Below the pieces are notes generated by a model. That model did no database searches. It was not told where the DNA came from and saw only the letters and a list, made by a program, of their open reading frames with translations. From the NCBI GenBank assembly GCA_029570385.1, contig JAKPXD010000020.1, forward strand, positions 1-64,000: a stretch of DNA of 64,000 nt, given 5' to 3'. Both the position numbers and the translations under genes were made by a program. Below are positions 50,575-57,952 of this stretch, piece by piece. The DNA is from a bacterium. GTDB taxonomy: Bacteria; Patescibacteriota; Patescibacteriia; Patescibacteriales; Patescibacteriaceae. Each line of letters starts with the position of its first letter. The first letter of the stretch is position 1.

Positions 50575-51387
50575 ATGAAAAAAAATTATAAAAGCAAACC
50601 ATTACCAATAACGGAGGGGTCGTCCGGCTGGCAAAATCGCTTTAATGCGCTATTAAGATCCAGCGGCCGTCGGCCAAGACGCTGGTATCGCCGTTGGTGG
50701 GGTATAATAATTTTAATTATAGCCGCTCTATTTAGCTTATTCGTAGCTGTTTATCTTTACAAGGTTGTTATCCTGGTTTGGCAGTTAAAAACCGGCCGAA
50801 TAACCGCCGCGGAATTAATGTTGCAACAAAGCAATCCAGGATTGAACACTAAAGAAATGATTGCTCTGACTAAAGGGCCGGCTCCATATTATTTGGGGAC
50901 ATCCAGTCCCAAGGTGCTAATTGTTGAATATGGCGATTTTAATTGCTCACATTGTCGAGTGGTCTCGCCAGAAATTCGCAAAGCCGTCAACCAAAATAAA
51001 GATATTGTTCAATATATCTGGCGCGATTGGCCAGGCCAAGACAATTCAGAATTACTGGCTCAGGCCGCTCGTTGCGCTGGCGAACAAGCTGGCAGTCTCG
51101 GCTTCTGGCTATTTCATGATCAGCTTTTACTCAATCAAAGTCAATTTACCACTACCAGTCAACTAATGGAATTAGCGGAAGAATACAGTCTTTCACCTAC
51201 CAGATTGCAAGATTGTATTGAACAACAGCGCACTCTGGGTTATTTACAAAAAGACTATCAAGACGCTATCGCTTTGGGCGGTATCGGCGGCACTCCAACC
51301 TGGTTTATTAATGGTTATCGTTTTAGCGGCGAATTACCGGCTGATTTTTTTAATTATATGATTAAAGAATTAACCAAGGAAAAATAA
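50575..51387 (+). CDS. DsbA-like thioredoxin-fold disulfide oxidoreductase
   Basis: Membrane-anchored thiol oxidoreductase or isomerase of 270 residues. A basic cytoplasmic tail leads to one helix near residues 43-62 (GIIILIIAALFSLFVAVYLY). The thioredoxin-fold domain has the active site GDFNCSHCRVVSPEI, with cysteines at 124 and 127. The DsbA helical insert lies at about 150-225, and the cis-Pro loop is GGTPTWFINGYRF. The family introduces or repairs disulfides in exported proteins. Its stop overlaps the porG start (TAATG), so it heads the por/pilin operon, which encodes several cysteine-rich exported proteins that would need such an enzyme. Confidence 0.9.
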   Translation: MKKNYKSKPLPITEGSSGWQNRFNALLRSSGRRPRRWYRRWWGIIILIIAALFSLFVAVYLYKVVILVWQLKTGRITAAELMLQQSNPGLNTKEMIALTKGPAPYYLGTSSPKVLIVEYGDFNCSHCRVVSPEIRKAVNQNKDIVQYIWRDWPGQDNSELLAQAARCAGEQAGSLGFWLFHDQLLLNQSQFTTTSQLMELAEEYSLSPTRLQDCIEQQRTLGYLQKDYQDAIALGGIGGTPTWFINGYRFSGELPADFFNYMIKELTKEK

Positions 51388-51947
51388 TGGCAGCCCTAAC
51401 TAAAAAATTAAATAGATCAATTACTATTAAAATACTCGGTCTGGGTGGACAAGGCGTAGTCACAACGGCCGCCACGTTAGCTCGGGCCGCTTTTCACCAA
51501 GGTTACTGGTCGCAATCAATGCCATTTTTTGGAGTAGAGCGAACCGGCACACCGGTCGAGGCCTATGTTAGGATAGCTGACCAATCAATCCGTAATCGCC
51601 AAAAAATTAATCGCTGCGACATTCTAATAATTAATGATTATCGACTTTATCAACAAAATGATTTAGGTAAACAATTAACAATTATTAACCATAGCGATTT
51701 GGCTAACTATCAACCAAAAACTAAACTACTGACTTATGATAGCCGCCAAATTTCTCTAGATATTTTTAATCAAGATTTAGCAATTGGCCTATTGGGCGGT
51801 TTAAGTGCTGCTTGGTCGCTGATTGATGAAGATAATTGGTTTAAGGCCCTGTCGGAACAATTTGCCAATCCAATAATCGCTCAAAAAAATCAGCAAGCTT
51901 TTTTGGCCAATCGTCAATTAGCGATTAAATTAATTAAATCGGCATGA
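51387..51947 (+). CDS. porG: 2-oxoacid:ferredoxin oxidoreductase, gamma subunit
   Basis: Gamma subunit of pyruvate or 2-oxoacid:ferredoxin oxidoreductase, which oxidises a 2-oxoacid to an acyl-CoA and reduced ferredoxin. The 186 residues show the N-terminal IKILGLGGQGVVTTAATLARAA. MPFFGVERTGTPVEAYVRI follows, a family hallmark, then CDILIINDYRL and the GLLGGLSAAWSLI end region. Stop and start overlap on both sides (TAATG with the DsbA-like gene, ATGA with porA). The precise 2-oxoacid is not decided by sequence. Confidence 0.92.
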   Translation: MAALTKKLNRSITIKILGLGGQGVVTTAATLARAAFHQGYWSQSMPFFGVERTGTPVEAYVRIADQSIRNRQKINRCDILIINDYRLYQQNDLGKQLTIINHSDLANYQPKTKLLTYDSRQISLDIFNQDLAIGLLGGLSAAWSLIDEDNWFKALSEQFANPIIAQKNQQAFLANRQLAIKLIKSA

Positions 51948-53119
51948 AACCAATAACTAGCAATGATAGCGCCGGACAATTAACCTTTCTGAAAGGTTCT
52001 GAGGCTATTGCCAAAATGGTGGCTCTTTGTCAGCCTGGAGTAGTGGCTGCCTACCCGATTACCCCACAGACCGGAATTATTGAACAGCTAGTCAAATTAT
52101 CAGCCAGCGGTCAAGCTGATTTTTCTTTTGTCCAAGCTGAGAGCGAATATTCAGCCCTATCAATCGCCTTAGGCGCCGCTGCCATGGGTGTGGCTGCCTA
52201 CACGGCCACCAGCTCGCAAGGACTGCTGTATATGACTGAGGTTATTTATAATTTAGCCGGTTTGCGCTTGCCACTAGTTATGACCTGTGCCAATCGTTCA
52301 ATTTCGGCACCAATCAATATCTGGAATGATCACCAAGACGCCATGGCGGTGCGCGAAGCCGGCTGGCTAATGTTCTTTGCTGAAGATAATCAAGAAGCGA
52401 TTGAACAACATTGGTTGGCTTTTGCCCTAAGTCAAAAATTAAGATTACCGGTCATGGTTAATGTTGACGGCTTCCGCCTAACCCACGCCAGTGAACCGGT
52501 GGCTTTACCAAATAAACAATTAGTTAAAAAACTATTAAATAATAAGATAAAAGCTGTTTTAAATACTAAAAAACCACAAACTACCGGTTGGTTTGCTATG
52601 CCAACTGAATATCAACAACAAAGACTGGAGTTAAGGCGAGTTATTGCCAATAGTTGGCCAATTATTAAGAATACCAACCAGCAATTTAATAATCTGTGGC
52701 AACCAATAAAAACAAAACTGCTCGGACGCAATAATCATAGTAGCGATCCGGCAGTTGAATATTATGGTCCGGCTCAAGCTAAACTAGTTATTGTAGCGAT
52801 GGGCTCAATCATTGGTGAGCTCAAGGACTTAGCTGATAAGGCTAATAAACAAAAACCGGGTTCAGTGGCAATTTTAAAGATTAAATTATACCGTCCATTC
52901 CCTGAGAAAGTTATTGAGCGCTATTTAAATCAAGCCGAACAAATCATAGTAATTGACCGCTCGCCCGGACTTGGAGCTCAGCCGCCGCTATTTAGCGATA
53001 TTATGACAATCAAACCATTAAATAAAAACAATATTTCCAGCCAAATCATCGGTTTGGGCGGTGATATTGATTTAATCAAAATAAACAAAACAATTAAAAA
53101 TATATGGGCAATTGTCTAG
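51944..53119 (+). CDS. porA: 2-oxoacid:ferredoxin oxidoreductase, alpha subunit
   Basis: Alpha subunit of the oxidoreductase, 391 residues. It has the typical N-terminal GSEAIAKMVALCQPGVVAAYPITPQT. The TPP-enzyme partner segment is FVQAESEYSALSIALGAAAMG with YTATSSQGLLYMTE. IWNDHQDAMAVREAGWLMF and the C-terminal KLYRPFPEKVIERYL with VIDRSPGLGAQPPLF follow. The gene overlaps porG by four bases. Its last 16 bases overlap the first pilin-like gene, and a decayed copy of its 3' end lies 1.4 kb downstream. porB comes only after two pilin-like genes. Confidence 0.94.
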   Translation: MKPITSNDSAGQLTFLKGSEAIAKMVALCQPGVVAAYPITPQTGIIEQLVKLSASGQADFSFVQAESEYSALSIALGAAAMGVAAYTATSSQGLLYMTEVIYNLAGLRLPLVMTCANRSISAPINIWNDHQDAMAVREAGWLMFFAEDNQEAIEQHWLAFALSQKLRLPVMVNVDGFRLTHASEPVALPNKQLVKKLLNNKIKAVLNTKKPQTTGWFAMPTEYQQQRLELRRVIANSWPIIKNTNQQFNNLWQPIKTKLLGRNNHSSDPAVEYYGPAQAKLVIVAMGSIIGELKDLADKANKQKPGSVAILKIKLYRPFPEKVIERYLNQAEQIIVIDRSPGLGAQPPLFSDIMTIKPLNKNNISSQIIGLGGDIDLIKINKTIKNIWAIV

Positions 53120-54435
53120 CCAGAAAATATAAGACGTTAATAACCGGCAGTATAATTTTAATTGTGGCGTTATTGCTTATTGGCCATAGTGTTTTGGCCG
53201 CATCAGTTACTACTAGTAGCAATGAATCATCTGGGGCTTTAAAGTTTACTCCCCAGGTTGGTCTACCTGGTTTTATGTCTGAGTATGTTTTTACAGAAAA
53301 TTCAACTATGCCAATAGCAAAACTAATGGGATCGCTATTTAAATATGGCATACAGATTATTGGTCTTATAGCAATAGTAGTCATAATGGCGGGAGGATTC
53401 ATTTGGGTTACTGCCGGCGGTAGCAGCGCTAAAGTCGGAGAAGCAAAACAGTGGATATTTAGCGGATTATCTGGTCTAATACTAATACTTTCTTCTTACC
53501 TCCTATTAAGGACAATAAATGTAAAACTGGTCAACTTTAATATTTCAACAATAAAAAAGATAACTGGCATTAAAATTAATGTTCATAAATCAAATCAGCA
53601 ACAAGTTTTTGAAGATGTCGGATACTTTGATGGTGTTTGTGCGGCAAAATTTGGCGATCCAGCCAATAATCAGGGTTGTTGTCTCGCTTATAACAAAAAA
53701 ATTGGCGCAGATAATTTTAAGGGGGCCACCCTATGTTGGCAAAATAATAAATATCAGGAAGCTGCTGCTGCTTGCGACAAATTTGCAATACAGTATTCTG
53801 GCCAAAATAAGTATGTCTACAGAATAAATAGTAGTGACACACTAACTATGAATCCAAATACAGCTATAAAAGATTGGTCAATAAACGAATTTAAAAAAGC
53901 TGGTGACTGTGGTTATTTTATCAGAGATAGCGCTTGCTGGAATTTAGGTACTTATATAAAGAATAATGTTAAGGGATTAGATGATCCTAATCTGTGTCAA
54001 GACAAACAGGATGGGTGGTCATGTATAATAAAAAAAGGTGATGGAACTAGAGCATGGGGATATTGTGAGAATAAACAATGCCGACATTGTCTAAAATACG
54101 GTTCAACTTGTACTATCAACAGTGGTTATGCCTGTCCAGATTCGGAAAATGCTGGAGCTGAAAGTGTTGATATTGAAGGTTATATGTGTGGAAATAGCGG
54201 CGTTATTAGCTCATTTAAAAACAGTAATAGCATCGGCCGCTGTTATGATGTTACCGGAAATGGCGCCAACTATTCAAATCAATATTATGAAGAAACTGGC
54301 GCTGATCCAGCACTAGGATCTAATACTGGTACTTCAATGGGTGTTTGTACTTGTAGAAAAGGAAAAGGCTGTCAATCACAATGTTTAAGAGATGCCGGAT
54401 CTTATAGTAATAGCGATAAAATTTGTAACTGGTAA
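53104..54435 (+). CDS. Type IV secretion pilin-like protein with cysteine-rich C-terminal domain (copy 1)
   Basis: Exported membrane protein of 443 residues. A signal peptide (TGSIILIVALLLIGHSVLAAS) precedes a VirB2/pilin-like module of two membrane helices: IIGLIAIVVIMAGGFIWVTAGG and IFSGLSGLILILSSYLLL, joined by KVGEAKQW. This is the arrangement of CPR type IV secretion pilins. The remaining 290 residues are outside and cysteine-rich (GCCLAYNKKIGADNF, KDGWSCIIKKGDG-type turns, GYCENKQCRHCLKYG), most likely disulfide-linked. It is 16 bases inside porA at its start. Copy 2 (54575) is a tandem paralog. The function of the cysteine-rich part is unknown. Confidence 0.8.
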   Translation: MGNCLARKYKTLITGSIILIVALLLIGHSVLAASVTTSSNESSGALKFTPQVGLPGFMSEYVFTENSTMPIAKLMGSLFKYGIQIIGLIAIVVIMAGGFIWVTAGGSSAKVGEAKQWIFSGLSGLILILSSYLLLRTINVKLVNFNISTIKKITGIKINVHKSNQQQVFEDVGYFDGVCAAKFGDPANNQGCCLAYNKKIGADNFKGATLCWQNNKYQEAAAACDKFAIQYSGQNKYVYRINSSDTLTMNPNTAIKDWSINEFKKAGDCGYFIRDSACWNLGTYIKNNVKGLDDPNLCQDKQDGWSCIIKKGDGTRAWGYCENKQCRHCLKYGSTCTINSGYACPDSENAGAESVDIEGYMCGNSGVISSFKNSNSIGRCYDVTGNGANYSNQYYEETGADPALGSNTGTSMGVCTCRKGKGCQSQCLRDAGSYSNSDKICNW

Positions 54436-54486
54436 ATAATGCTATGTCAAATCACTACATCGCTAATAGCTATATCTATGATAATT

Positions 54487-54574
54487 AAACAGTTTAATAA
54501 AACAATATTTCCAGCCAAATTATCGGCTTGAGCGATGATATTGATTTAATAATGATTAATAAAATCATTAAAAA
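54487..54574 (+). pseudogene. Decayed duplicate of the porA 3' end
   Basis: This stretch between the two pilin-like genes matches the last 90 or so bases of porA (53012-53103). About four-fifths of the bases are identical by eye, including CAATATTTCCAGCCAAAT and GATGATATTGATTTAAT blocks. One base is missing in an A run. Past that deletion the frame still reads a porA-like IIGL-DDIDL peptide. It is the scar of a tandem duplication that took the porA tail together with the pilin-like gene. Confidence 0.88.
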
Positions 54575-55879
54575 ATGCAACCTATGAAATCAACTAAAGT
54601 AATAATGATTTTCCAGACTATTATCTTATTCGTTGGATTATTTATGATTCCACATCAAGCATTAGTAGCCTCTACTTCGACTAGTTCAGCCGAAAATTTA
54701 ACTTCAACAAAGACTCTAGTCTTTACTCCGCAAATTCCTGGATTTATTGCAAAATATGTTTTTAAAGATAATTCCACCAGACCTATAGCTAATACAATTA
54801 AGACTATATTTGAGTATGCTATAAAAATAATTGGTCTAATTGCAATAATTACTACGATGGTTGGTGGCTTTATTTGGTTGTCGGCCGCCGGTAATAGCCA
54901 AAAAATTTCTGAAGCTAAGCAGTGGATATCAAGTAGTTTAATTGGATTATTATTAATTTTATTTTCTCATACTATACTTAGAACAATTAATTATAATCTA
55001 GTAAATTTTAAAGTATCTGTAATTAAAACTATTGATAGGATAAATATTGTCTATGAAAATAAAACTGACCCACGGCAATTTCACGAAGATAACGCCCAAA
55101 AAACTATGACAATTGCCTCAAGTACTAATCCCAACGGTGTTATTGCTTGCTGTATCATTAATACACCACAAACTCATGGTTCTGCAGTATTTGGTGTTCA
55201 GACATTAAATTGTGCTACTTATCAGGCTACATATTATAAGGGCACCGGATCTACCGACAGCATAGAATCCTTATGTAAACAATTCTATGAGTCCAAAATG
55301 CATTTAGTACTAAATGATCCAATTAATATTGTTAGTCCTCTTGAGGCTCGCAAAATAGGCGCACGAAGCGCTGCTATGTTCGTTGGCCGGTGTGAAGATA
55401 GCGAAGTTTTTAAAGAAATTTGTATGGGTAAAGATCATAAAGATTTTTGCAAAGTTAAAAAGGTTGGTTCAAGTTGTATAACTGACGATAATTATTGGGG
55501 ATATTGTAGCGAACAAAAAAAATGCACAAAATGTGCCGGCTATGGACAACCAGCAGAACACTCCTATCAATGCCCAACATTTGTAGGTGTTGTGGACGAC
55601 AATGGCAATGTTCAACCTCTAAAAAATCTCGCTAATTCTCCACAGGTTCTTGGACATCAATGTGGTAATGACGTTATGGGTTGTCTTGATACTAGAAATG
55701 ACGAGAAATATAAAAGATGTTTATGCTATGGCTCGTTTTGCTACCAAGAATGTATAAATAATGGTGGATATAATGGTGGTTTTTGGTCTTGGCATAATCC
55801 TAATTGTTTAAATGTTAAACCAAAAAAACGACATTTATATGTTGGAACTAATAATGCTGCACCAGACTGTCGTCAATAA
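54575..55879 (+). CDS. Type IV secretion pilin-like protein with cysteine-rich C-terminal domain (copy 2)
   Basis: Paralog of the preceding gene, 434 residues. A signal peptide (VIMIFQTIILFVGLFMIPHQ) is followed by the same pilin-like pair of helices (IIGLIAIITTMVGGFIWLSAAG and SSSLIGLLLILFSHTILRTIN) with the EAKQW link. The outer part is again cysteine-rich, with matching motifs (CKVKKVGSSCITDDNYWGYC, KKCTKCAGYG, YQCPTFVG). It starts at an ATG at the same place relative to the porA tail as copy 1. It ends four bases before porB, so it is co-translated with it. Confidence 0.8.
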   Translation: MQPMKSTKVIMIFQTIILFVGLFMIPHQALVASTSTSSAENLTSTKTLVFTPQIPGFIAKYVFKDNSTRPIANTIKTIFEYAIKIIGLIAIITTMVGGFIWLSAAGNSQKISEAKQWISSSLIGLLLILFSHTILRTINYNLVNFKVSVIKTIDRINIVYENKTDPRQFHEDNAQKTMTIASSTNPNGVIACCIINTPQTHGSAVFGVQTLNCATYQATYYKGTGSTDSIESLCKQFYESKMHLVLNDPINIVSPLEARKIGARSAAMFVGRCEDSEVFKEICMGKDHKDFCKVKKVGSSCITDDNYWGYCSEQKKCTKCAGYGQPAEHSYQCPTFVGVVDDNGNVQPLKNLANSPQVLGHQCGNDVMGCLDTRNDEKYKRCLCYGSFCYQECINNGGYNGGFWSWHNPNCLNVKPKKRHLYVGTNNAAPDCRQ

Positions 55880-55883
55880 TAAA

Positions 55884-56747
55884 ATGAAATTAACCAATCA
55901 TCACACCGCCTGTCTAGGTTGCGCTCAAATTGTGGCTGCTCGCTTAGCTATTAATCAACTAGGGTCAAATACCATAGTTGTTAATTCTACCGGCTGTCTA
56001 GAAGTAACCACCACCGCCTACCCTAACAGCGCCTGGCAAGTTCCTTGGTTGCATTCCACTTTTGCCAATGCTGCTCCGGTAGGTAGCGGCATAATAGCAG
56101 CTTTAGATTATCTGGAAAAAAACAGCCAATCAGAAAAAAAACGACCGATTGTTGTGGTTCAAGGCGGCGATGGAGCAACTTTTGACATTGGTTTTGGCGC
56201 TCTAACCGCTAGCTGGGCTCGTGGCGATGACTTGCTGTATATCTGCTATGATAATGAAGGCTATGCCAATACTGGCATGCAGGCCAGTTTATCCACTCCG
56301 ACCCAGGCCAAAACCCCGACTAGCCTTAACAAACACCAAAATAAACGCGATATGTTGGCTATTGCCTTGGCTCATAATATACCATATATTGCCCAGGCCA
56401 ATATCGCCTTTCCTGATGACTTTAAAAATAAAATAGCCAAAGCACAAAAAATAAAAGGACCGCGCTATATTCAAATTTTAGTCCCCTGCTTGCCTGGCTG
56501 GAAAATAAAACCAGGCGACCAAATGTTAACCGCGAAGTTAGCTAGCGAAACTGGTCTTTACCCATTATTAGAGTTCATTAACGGACAGTTAAATGTTAGC
56601 ATAAAATTACCGACTCCAATACCACCAGTAAGCGATTATATTAAGAATCAAGGACGTTATCAACATTTACTAAAAAATAAATCAGCATTAAAACAACTGC
56701 AATCCTTAGCTGATGCTAATATTGAAAAATACGGTCTATGCAAATGA
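55884..56747 (+). CDS. porB: 2-oxoacid:ferredoxin oxidoreductase, beta subunit
   Basis: TPP- and iron-sulfur-binding beta subunit, 287 residues from the ATG at 55884. The longer frame upstream only overlaps the previous gene. Conserved parts are HHTACLGCAQIVAARL with the cluster cysteines, NSTGCLEVTTTAYP, VVQGGDGATFDIGFGALTAS (TPP-binding), YICYDNEGYANTGMQ, STPTQAKTPTSL and KGPRYIQILVPCLPGW. No separate delta (ferredoxin-like) subunit is seen. It is split from porA by two pilin-like genes, an unusual order. Its end overlaps the third pilin-like gene by ten bases. Confidence 0.92.
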   Translation: MKLTNHHTACLGCAQIVAARLAINQLGSNTIVVNSTGCLEVTTTAYPNSAWQVPWLHSTFANAAPVGSGIIAALDYLEKNSQSEKKRPIVVVQGGDGATFDIGFGALTASWARGDDLLYICYDNEGYANTGMQASLSTPTQAKTPTSLNKHQNKRDMLAIALAHNIPYIAQANIAFPDDFKNKIAKAQKIKGPRYIQILVPCLPGWKIKPGDQMLTAKLASETGLYPLLEFINGQLNVSIKLPTPIPPVSDYIKNQGRYQHLLKNKSALKQLQSLADANIEKYGLCK

Positions 56748-57952
56748 TAAAAAAAATCATTTTCCTTTTTTTTATACTAATTATACTACCACAACAAACG
56801 ATAGCTTCATGTGTGGCCAATGAAAATTGCTTGGGTCAAGGCCTTAGTCCCGATGCAATTTCTAATCGTTGTAGTTCAATAACAACTAAAGAAGTATGTA
56901 ATTCTGACCATTGTTGTAACTGGTGGAACATCACCCTCCCAGCTCAATTTAATACCACTGAAGAAACCACTACAAATACCACGGAAGAAGAAACTGATCC
57001 AGAAGAAACTAGTCCAAAATTAATCATACCTGATCTGCAGATTAAATTACCAAATTTAGTATTCAGTGACCAAAATAAAATTCAAACTAGCAGTGATGGA
57101 GAAAACACCTTCTTTTATATACCTTGGATTGGCGAATATTTAGCTTGGCTATATAATTATTCGATTGGAATTATAGCTGTTTTGGCTTTAATTGCCATTA
57201 TAGTTGGCGGTTTCTACTGGTTATTGGCCGGTGGTAATGCTAGTCGAGTAACTGAAGCTAAAAATTGGATTAACGCCGCCTTTAGCGGTCTAGGGCTAGC
57301 ATTAGGCTCATATTTAATCTTAGTGACTATCAATAGCAATTTGGTAAGATTTTCTAGTATAAAAATGATGGCTAATAAAAAAATAGACATACCAATATTA
57401 GAAGGTGGAAGTGAAAGCGCTGATAACCTTGTCGACACCTCCAACTTATCAGCCGACTGCCATGATCCATGCGTGCCTCCGTCAACATTGGTGTCTATTA
57501 AGAATACTATACCGGCTCTCGATTGTGTGGCTAGTGATTGTCGGGTAAATTTTACTACTTATCAAAAATTAATTACGGCAAGCTCAAAAGCCGCAGCAAA
57601 TAATTATCGACTTAAGGTCACTAGCGCTAACAGAAGCTGTGCCACTCAGCAAAAACTCTGGATACAATCTGGAAAAAATTCAAGTAGAGTAGCTCGACCA
57701 AGTTGCCGATCTCCGCATTTAAGCGGTTCGGCTGTAGACATAACTATCACTGATAAAAAAGGCGCCAATTTAGTTAATAAATCTTATAAGGAGCTATACC
57801 CAAGAAATGGTCCTTATAATCTGGGTGATAATGATAAATTAACATTATTAAAAAGAATTATGATAGAGTCGGGATTTGTTCGTTATTGTAGAGAATGGTG
57901 GCATTTTCAAGTTATCAAAGCGGCTATACCATGCTATGACCCAATAAAATAG
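56738..57952 (+). CDS. Pilin-like membrane domain fused to a VanY-type D,D-carboxypeptidase
   Basis: Protein of 404 residues. It has a signal peptide (IIFLFFILIILPQQTIASC), a cysteine pair region, a Thr/Glu-rich linker (near 75-95) and the pilin-like helix pair (SIGIIAVLALIAIIVGGFYW and FSGLGLALGSYLILVTIN), joined by a VTEAKNW link. The C-terminal 150 residues are a peptidase M15B domain: YRLKVTSANRSCATQQKLW, SPHLSGSAVDI with zinc ligands His327 and Asp334, and REWWHFQV with His389. Such enzymes remove the terminal D-Ala of peptidoglycan stems. Local wall trimming for pilus passage is a reasonable inference. It is the last gene of the por/pilin operon. Confidence 0.85.
   Translation: MQMIKKIIFLFFILIILPQQTIASCVANENCLGQGLSPDAISNRCSSITTKEVCNSDHCCNWWNITLPAQFNTTEETTTNTTEEETDPEETSPKLIIPDLQIKLPNLVFSDQNKIQTSSDGENTFFYIPWIGEYLAWLYNYSIGIIAVLALIAIIVGGFYWLLAGGNASRVTEAKNWINAAFSGLGLALGSYLILVTINSNLVRFSSIKMMANKKIDIPILEGGSESADNLVDTSNLSADCHDPCVPPSTLVSIKNTIPALDCVASDCRVNFTTYQKLITASSKAAANNYRLKVTSANRSCATQQKLWIQSGKNSSRVARPSCRSPHLSGSAVDITITDKKGANLVNKSYKELYPRNGPYNLGDNDKLTLLKRIMIESGFVRYCREWWHFQVIKAAIPCYDPIK

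Follow-up and report, generated by a model that had tools for sequence, protein, structure and literature searches.

The 114 bases between two pilin-like genes in a Falkowbacteria-type member of the Patescibacteria (placed by its nearest named relatives) are a truncated copy of the 3' end of porA, unique to this lineage and positioned as a porA tail should be ahead of the second pilin. They lie in a window of 64,000 nucleotides, which is the whole stretch of DNA analyzed, from a 654,490-base draft genome of 31 contigs that is ~90% complete. In our judgment the chances are slightly better than even that this relic is the remainder of a second, once-coding porA copy or allele that stood ahead of pilin 2 and was later reduced to this tail. 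In order along the locus come dsbA-like, porG, porA, pilin-like 1, relic, pilin-like 2, porB, and a gene that joins a pilin domain to a peptidase domain (Table 1).

Table 1. Genes and sequence features at the porA-pilin-porB locus, in window coordinates
Feature	Position	Strand	Evidence
porA, alpha subunit of pyruvate/2-oxoacid:ferredoxin oxidoreductase, intact	51944..53119	+	Pfam POR_N 1.7e-60, PFOR_II 2e-17
porA 3' end portion duplicated downstream	52986..53100	+	alignment to 54461-54574
Pilin-like gene 1, with a signal-peptide-like N terminus, a hydrophobic domain resembling T4SS_pilin and a Cys-rich C-terminal region	53104..54435	+	ORF; T4SS_pilin 22.2 bits
25 bases from the pilin-1 stop to the relic; weak resemblance to porB start (ATG...TCAAATCACTACATCGCT)	54436..54460	+	
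Relic: truncated, frameshifted second porA 3' end	54461..54574	+	alignments, blastn, translated search
Pilin-like gene 2, begins directly after the relic	54575..55879	+	T4SS_pilin 3.5e-10
porB, thiamine-diphosphate-binding beta subunit	55884..56747	+	TPP_enzyme_C 7.6e-18; orthologues found
Third pilin-domain gene, D-Ala-D-Ala peptidase (M15/VanY) C-terminal domain	56738..57952	+	Peptidase_M15 9.5e-10

The pilin-like genes resemble proteins of the T4SS_pilin family (PF18895) in having a predicted two-helix hydrophobic pilin domain behind a signal-peptide-like start, but they are much longer (~400 to 500 amino acids) and carry Cys-rich or peptidase C-terminal parts. Several fall under the curated family cut-off of 26.6 bits; pilin 2 passes it at 40.3 bits, whereas pilin 1 stays below it. 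The third pilin-domain gene is matched by the pilin-2 query at 57140-57388.

Local alignment of the relic with the porA end gives 95 identical columns out of 116, with 18 substitutions at 113 compared sites (16%) plus three one-base indels. The original prediction, an 88-base repeat of the porA tail with about 20 percent divergence and one deleted base, proves correct but too small: the left edge lies ~26 bases further left, the divergence figure holds once indels are counted, and the single deletion is right for the 88 bases but not for the left extension, which adds one deletion and one insertion. Besides the indels, the damage comprises two in-frame TAA codons and the change of a GLGG motif to GLSD; read in the porA frame, the relic gives NNISSQIIGLSDDIDLIMINKIIKKC where porA has NNISSQIIGLGGDIDLIKINKTIKNI. 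The spacer between the two pilin genes is almost wholly porA derived, and no part of a second porA remains besides the relic.

Pilin-like gene 1 overlaps the end of porA by 16 bases, and in both units the porA reading frame runs into the start of the pilin. Counted from the A of the pilin-1 ATG, the porA stop (TAG) is 13 bases downstream, and the relic frame runs to a TGA at 54585-54587, inside pilin 2 and 10 bases past the A of its ATG, in agreement with the predicted matching ATG offsets.

The region is AT rich, which might favor a chance resemblance, but this reading is scarcely credible and is refuted by shuffle and locus controls. The relic alignment scores 367 against a maximum of 156 among dinucleotide-shuffle controls (z = 17), the next best place within the window scores 158 against 314 for the relic, and no such match was found in ~45 control loci. 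A translated porA search recovers 54492-54575 (71% identity, E 5e-5), with the two TAA codons included, and blastn with the porA tail recovers 54467-54574 (83%, E 6e-24) and no further copy in the source genome or in two genomes of the same genus. On these sequence comparisons the relic is a partial copy of the porA 3' end, with similarity beyond chance that stays strong up to the pilin start. Very improbable, too, is a metagenome assembly chimera joining two strain alleles, porA-pilin 1 and porA'-pilin 2-porB. The fragmented, incomplete draft would suit such a chimera, and the five-contig assembly of the sister genome G001 likewise breaks inside porA here, but a real porA allele would be in frame, and the relic has its three indels and a broken GLGG motif.

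How far is this relic shared by relatives? In ~45 por loci, the 200 bases at the 3' end of porA were aligned with what lies downstream, the number of independent controls being somewhat smaller since a few genomes contribute two loci. No porA-end relic is present in these loci, all other porA-porB intervals having z ≤ 3.3, and the G001 inter-pilin spacer and the spacer of a second sister genome, G002, score at chance level against porA ends. Nor are copies of the porB end or the porB start significant between genes of these loci, barring the weak 25-base resemblance in the window. The proposed comparison with relatives hence established that the relic is lineage specific, but it does not tie the second pilin to the relic, as G001 already carries a pair of pilins in its porA-porB interval, of which the second lacks a signal peptide, and no detectable relic.

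Where porA and porB share a contig, almost every relative of the order has pilin-like genes in the interval, which holds one to several ORFs, some of which are not pilins. The clear exception is L063, in which porA adjoins porB and the pilin follows porB; in Omnitrophota porA and porB are adjacent. G002 has one full pilin and, directly after porA, a short hydrophobic ORF resembling a pilin head (L039 3438-3562, 41 codons), which overlaps the porA stop and has the look of a degraded 5' remnant of a pilin gene since lost. Because the full pilin of G002 groups with the second pilin of G001, not the first (96/82 and 97/95 support), the common ancestor of G001 and G002 probably had two pilins. Pilin multiplication in this genus occurs without a relic. 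The relic had also been read as a record of pilin family expansion, a role it does not have, because nearly all relatives carry one to several pilins between porA and porB without it.

Several other features of these loci were noted. The break in the G001 assembly falls at the end of contig C1 (L037 6113) and the start of C2 (L038) and may reflect a repeat or strain variation within porA. The pilin-domain gene that follows porB is closely similar in the two sister genomes over its N-terminal half (L037 1612-2904, minus strand, and L039 5985-7181), whereas the C-terminal domain is a C39-like peptidase in one genome and of the M15/VanY type in its sister, which suggests module swapping. Pilin-domain paralogues of one genome often cluster together in the tree, not with orthologues (L040, L041, L042, L051, and L061), which suggests gene conversion or duplication on repeated occasions. 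Elsewhere in the family, in other genera, genes with a lytic-transglycosylase-like motif (AESxG...GLMQLMP, recognized by eye) stand between porA and porB (L040 4424-5209; L041 3973-4707 and L042 4144-4929, both reverse complement).

The relic was originally taken to preserve the junction of a tandem duplication that began inside porA and gave rise to both pilins. Part of this stands: the relic is a porA end, and pilin 2 is placed behind it as pilin 1 is behind porA. What the data do not support is that the relic marks the junction formed at the birth of the pilin pair, with a left end in porA at that time. The two pilins share 37 to 38% amino acid identity and differ at 158 of 244 synonymous and 411 of 923 nonsynonymous sites; their four-fold sites are 38% identical against 34% expected at random (dS about 1.5). 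They are near synonymous saturation, at a distance like that of pilins from different species. For porA itself, the source genome and G002 show 37% four-fold identity against 26% expected (dS 2.9). The in-frame block of relic and porA, only 78 bases with 14 synonymous sites, has 7 synonymous differences, a share compatible with that of the pilin pair (p 0.27), and 8 nonsynonymous differences at 64 sites, far below the pilin level. Positive selection was considered as the cause of the faster divergence of the pilins relative to the relic and rejected, since the pilins approach saturation at synonymous sites as well.

Neutral decay since a split of dS 1.0 or 1.5 predicts 32 to 42 differing sites in the 78 bases, and 15 are observed; none of 3,000 simulations over dS 1.0 to 1.5 gave 15 or fewer. 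Codons of conserved residues are identical between relic and porA in 15 of 20 cases, with ~10 expected at the level of the pilin pair or the genus split (p 0.02). Taken as neutral noncoding DNA, the relic is thus not of the same age as the pilin pair: if unconstrained, it is younger than the pilin split. Since the differences are too few for neutral decay, either the relic turned noncoding after the pilins separated or something maintains its similarity to porA.

The second option is needed by a single tandem duplication of porA end and pilin, in which the relic would be the junction between pilins 1 and 2, kept porA-like by leader constraint or gene conversion. We regard this as unlikely. Position, orientation, and offset are exactly as it predicts, and a clade of pilin 1 and pilin 2, although not recovered in a tree that puts pilin 2 outside pilin 1 and the G001/G002 pilins with weak support, is not rejected by the AU test (p 0.25 to 0.32). 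The 25 bases ahead of the relic could be a leftover of porB, their weak resemblance to the porB start being what is expected of a breakpoint within that gene, but the statistical case is marginal (background p 0.01 to 0.03; shuffle p 0.04 to 0.27, depending on the porB head used) and the same bases pair with 54533-54549 of the relic in the predicted RNA fold, a competing inverted match. That fold of the spacer is predicted to be moderately stable (z -2.2), in line with a constrained leader. A promoter was rejected as the reason for relic conservation, promoter-like sites occurring at shuffle frequency (19 found, 19.4 expected). Against a single duplication stand the near saturation of the pilins beside a relic differing at so few sites, the failure of neutral decay over pilin-split time in simulation, and the collapse of homology beyond the pilin start, where the two units, strongly similar up to that point, pass into unalignable signal peptides; constraint or conversion is moreover an added assumption.

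The pattern of the differences between relic and porA is coding-like. They fall at codon positions 1, 2, and 3 in counts of 2, 6, and 10 and are concentrated at synonymous sites (Fisher p 0.004). With G002 as the outgroup, 8 of 15 differences are assigned to the living porA, where third positions predominate, and 6 of 15 to the relic, where most affect the first or second position of the codon; third-position matches to G002 favor the relic 7 to 1, this polarization depending on a single outgroup whose third positions are close to saturated. From the synonymous enrichment, the codon-position pattern, and the outgroup polarization, the data lean toward, without proving, a divergence of the two porA ends as coding sequence before one was truncated. 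In simulation, a sequence that stayed coding until recently at dS 0.6 to 1.0 explains the differences at most ~threefold better than young neutral decay (omega 0.15), a modest advantage that is smaller at higher omega. The same model at dS 1.5 predicts too many differences (P 0.006), and on this modeling the split of the porA ends seems a little more recent than that of the pilins.

The boundary of porA and pilin must have undergone a duplication or recombination of some kind. We infer that the second porA still coded when it was truncated, and with it a route of origin as follows. Two porA-pilin units would have come to stand side by side, either as tandem copies of the whole unit or as strain alleles joined by unequal recombination. 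Both units would then have diverged while both porA ends were coding, the pilins fast and porA slowly. The second porA would later have been lost save for its last ~114 bases, which may persist as the leader or upstream region of pilin 2, and the outer metabolic genes porA and porB would have remained whole throughout.

A specific form of this history, quite unlikely when taken by itself, has pilin 1 and a porA end inserted ahead of a resident porA end and pilin 2, the incoming DNA deriving from a related strain and entering by a single crossover or by homology-assisted illegitimate recombination; in that case the relic would be native and the porA end now in use partly foreign. The excess of differences on the living porA branch and the third-position matches to G002 are consistent with such an insertion, as are the pilins of these loci, which are far more divergent between species than porB. 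On present data it is indistinguishable from duplication of the whole unit. Formation of tandem duplications and merodiploids by unequal crossing-over during transformation is documented in Streptococcus pneumoniae (PMC3784515). Like the junctions described there, the locus has a partial copy of a flanking gene between two copies of the neighboring gene, with the outer flanking genes intact, and unequal recombination is the likely route. Unlike those cases, which span ~100 to 900 kb and are fresh, it covers ~1.5 kb and is old and decayed, and its duplicated neighbors are far more divergent than the remnant.

Returning to the preferred reading, a second coding porA reduced to its tail, the relic is a duplication remnant of a common type, and what is unusual is the locus. 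Pilin genes undergo birth and death by tandem duplication. The locus shares with this process several related pilin-domain genes side by side and a fast turnover, one relative carrying a truncated second pilin and another a short remnant like a pilin head. It differs in that the genes stand inside a 2-oxoacid:ferredoxin oxidoreductase set and that the relic derives from a metabolic gene, not a pilin. The nesting of pilin-domain genes between porA and porB appears near order-wide from gene order (window 51387-57952; loci L039 to L074), and a narrow literature search returned no account of it.

The relic is a clean, lineage-specific recombination scar that helps to place events in sequence at a locus where genes for rapidly evolving exported proteins sit between those for two subunits of an enzyme of central metabolism. 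It shows that this locus recombines without harm to the metabolic genes; alone, it does not reveal how the pilin family expanded. A broader and rather doubtful proposal is that strains of the order swap whole genes for exported pilin-module proteins at the porA-pilin-porB locus, the conserved metabolic genes serving as anchors for recombination, in which case the relic would be a rare scar of two alleles that once stood side by side. Of wider importance is that pilin-domain genes are nested in the porA-porB interval across nearly the whole order.
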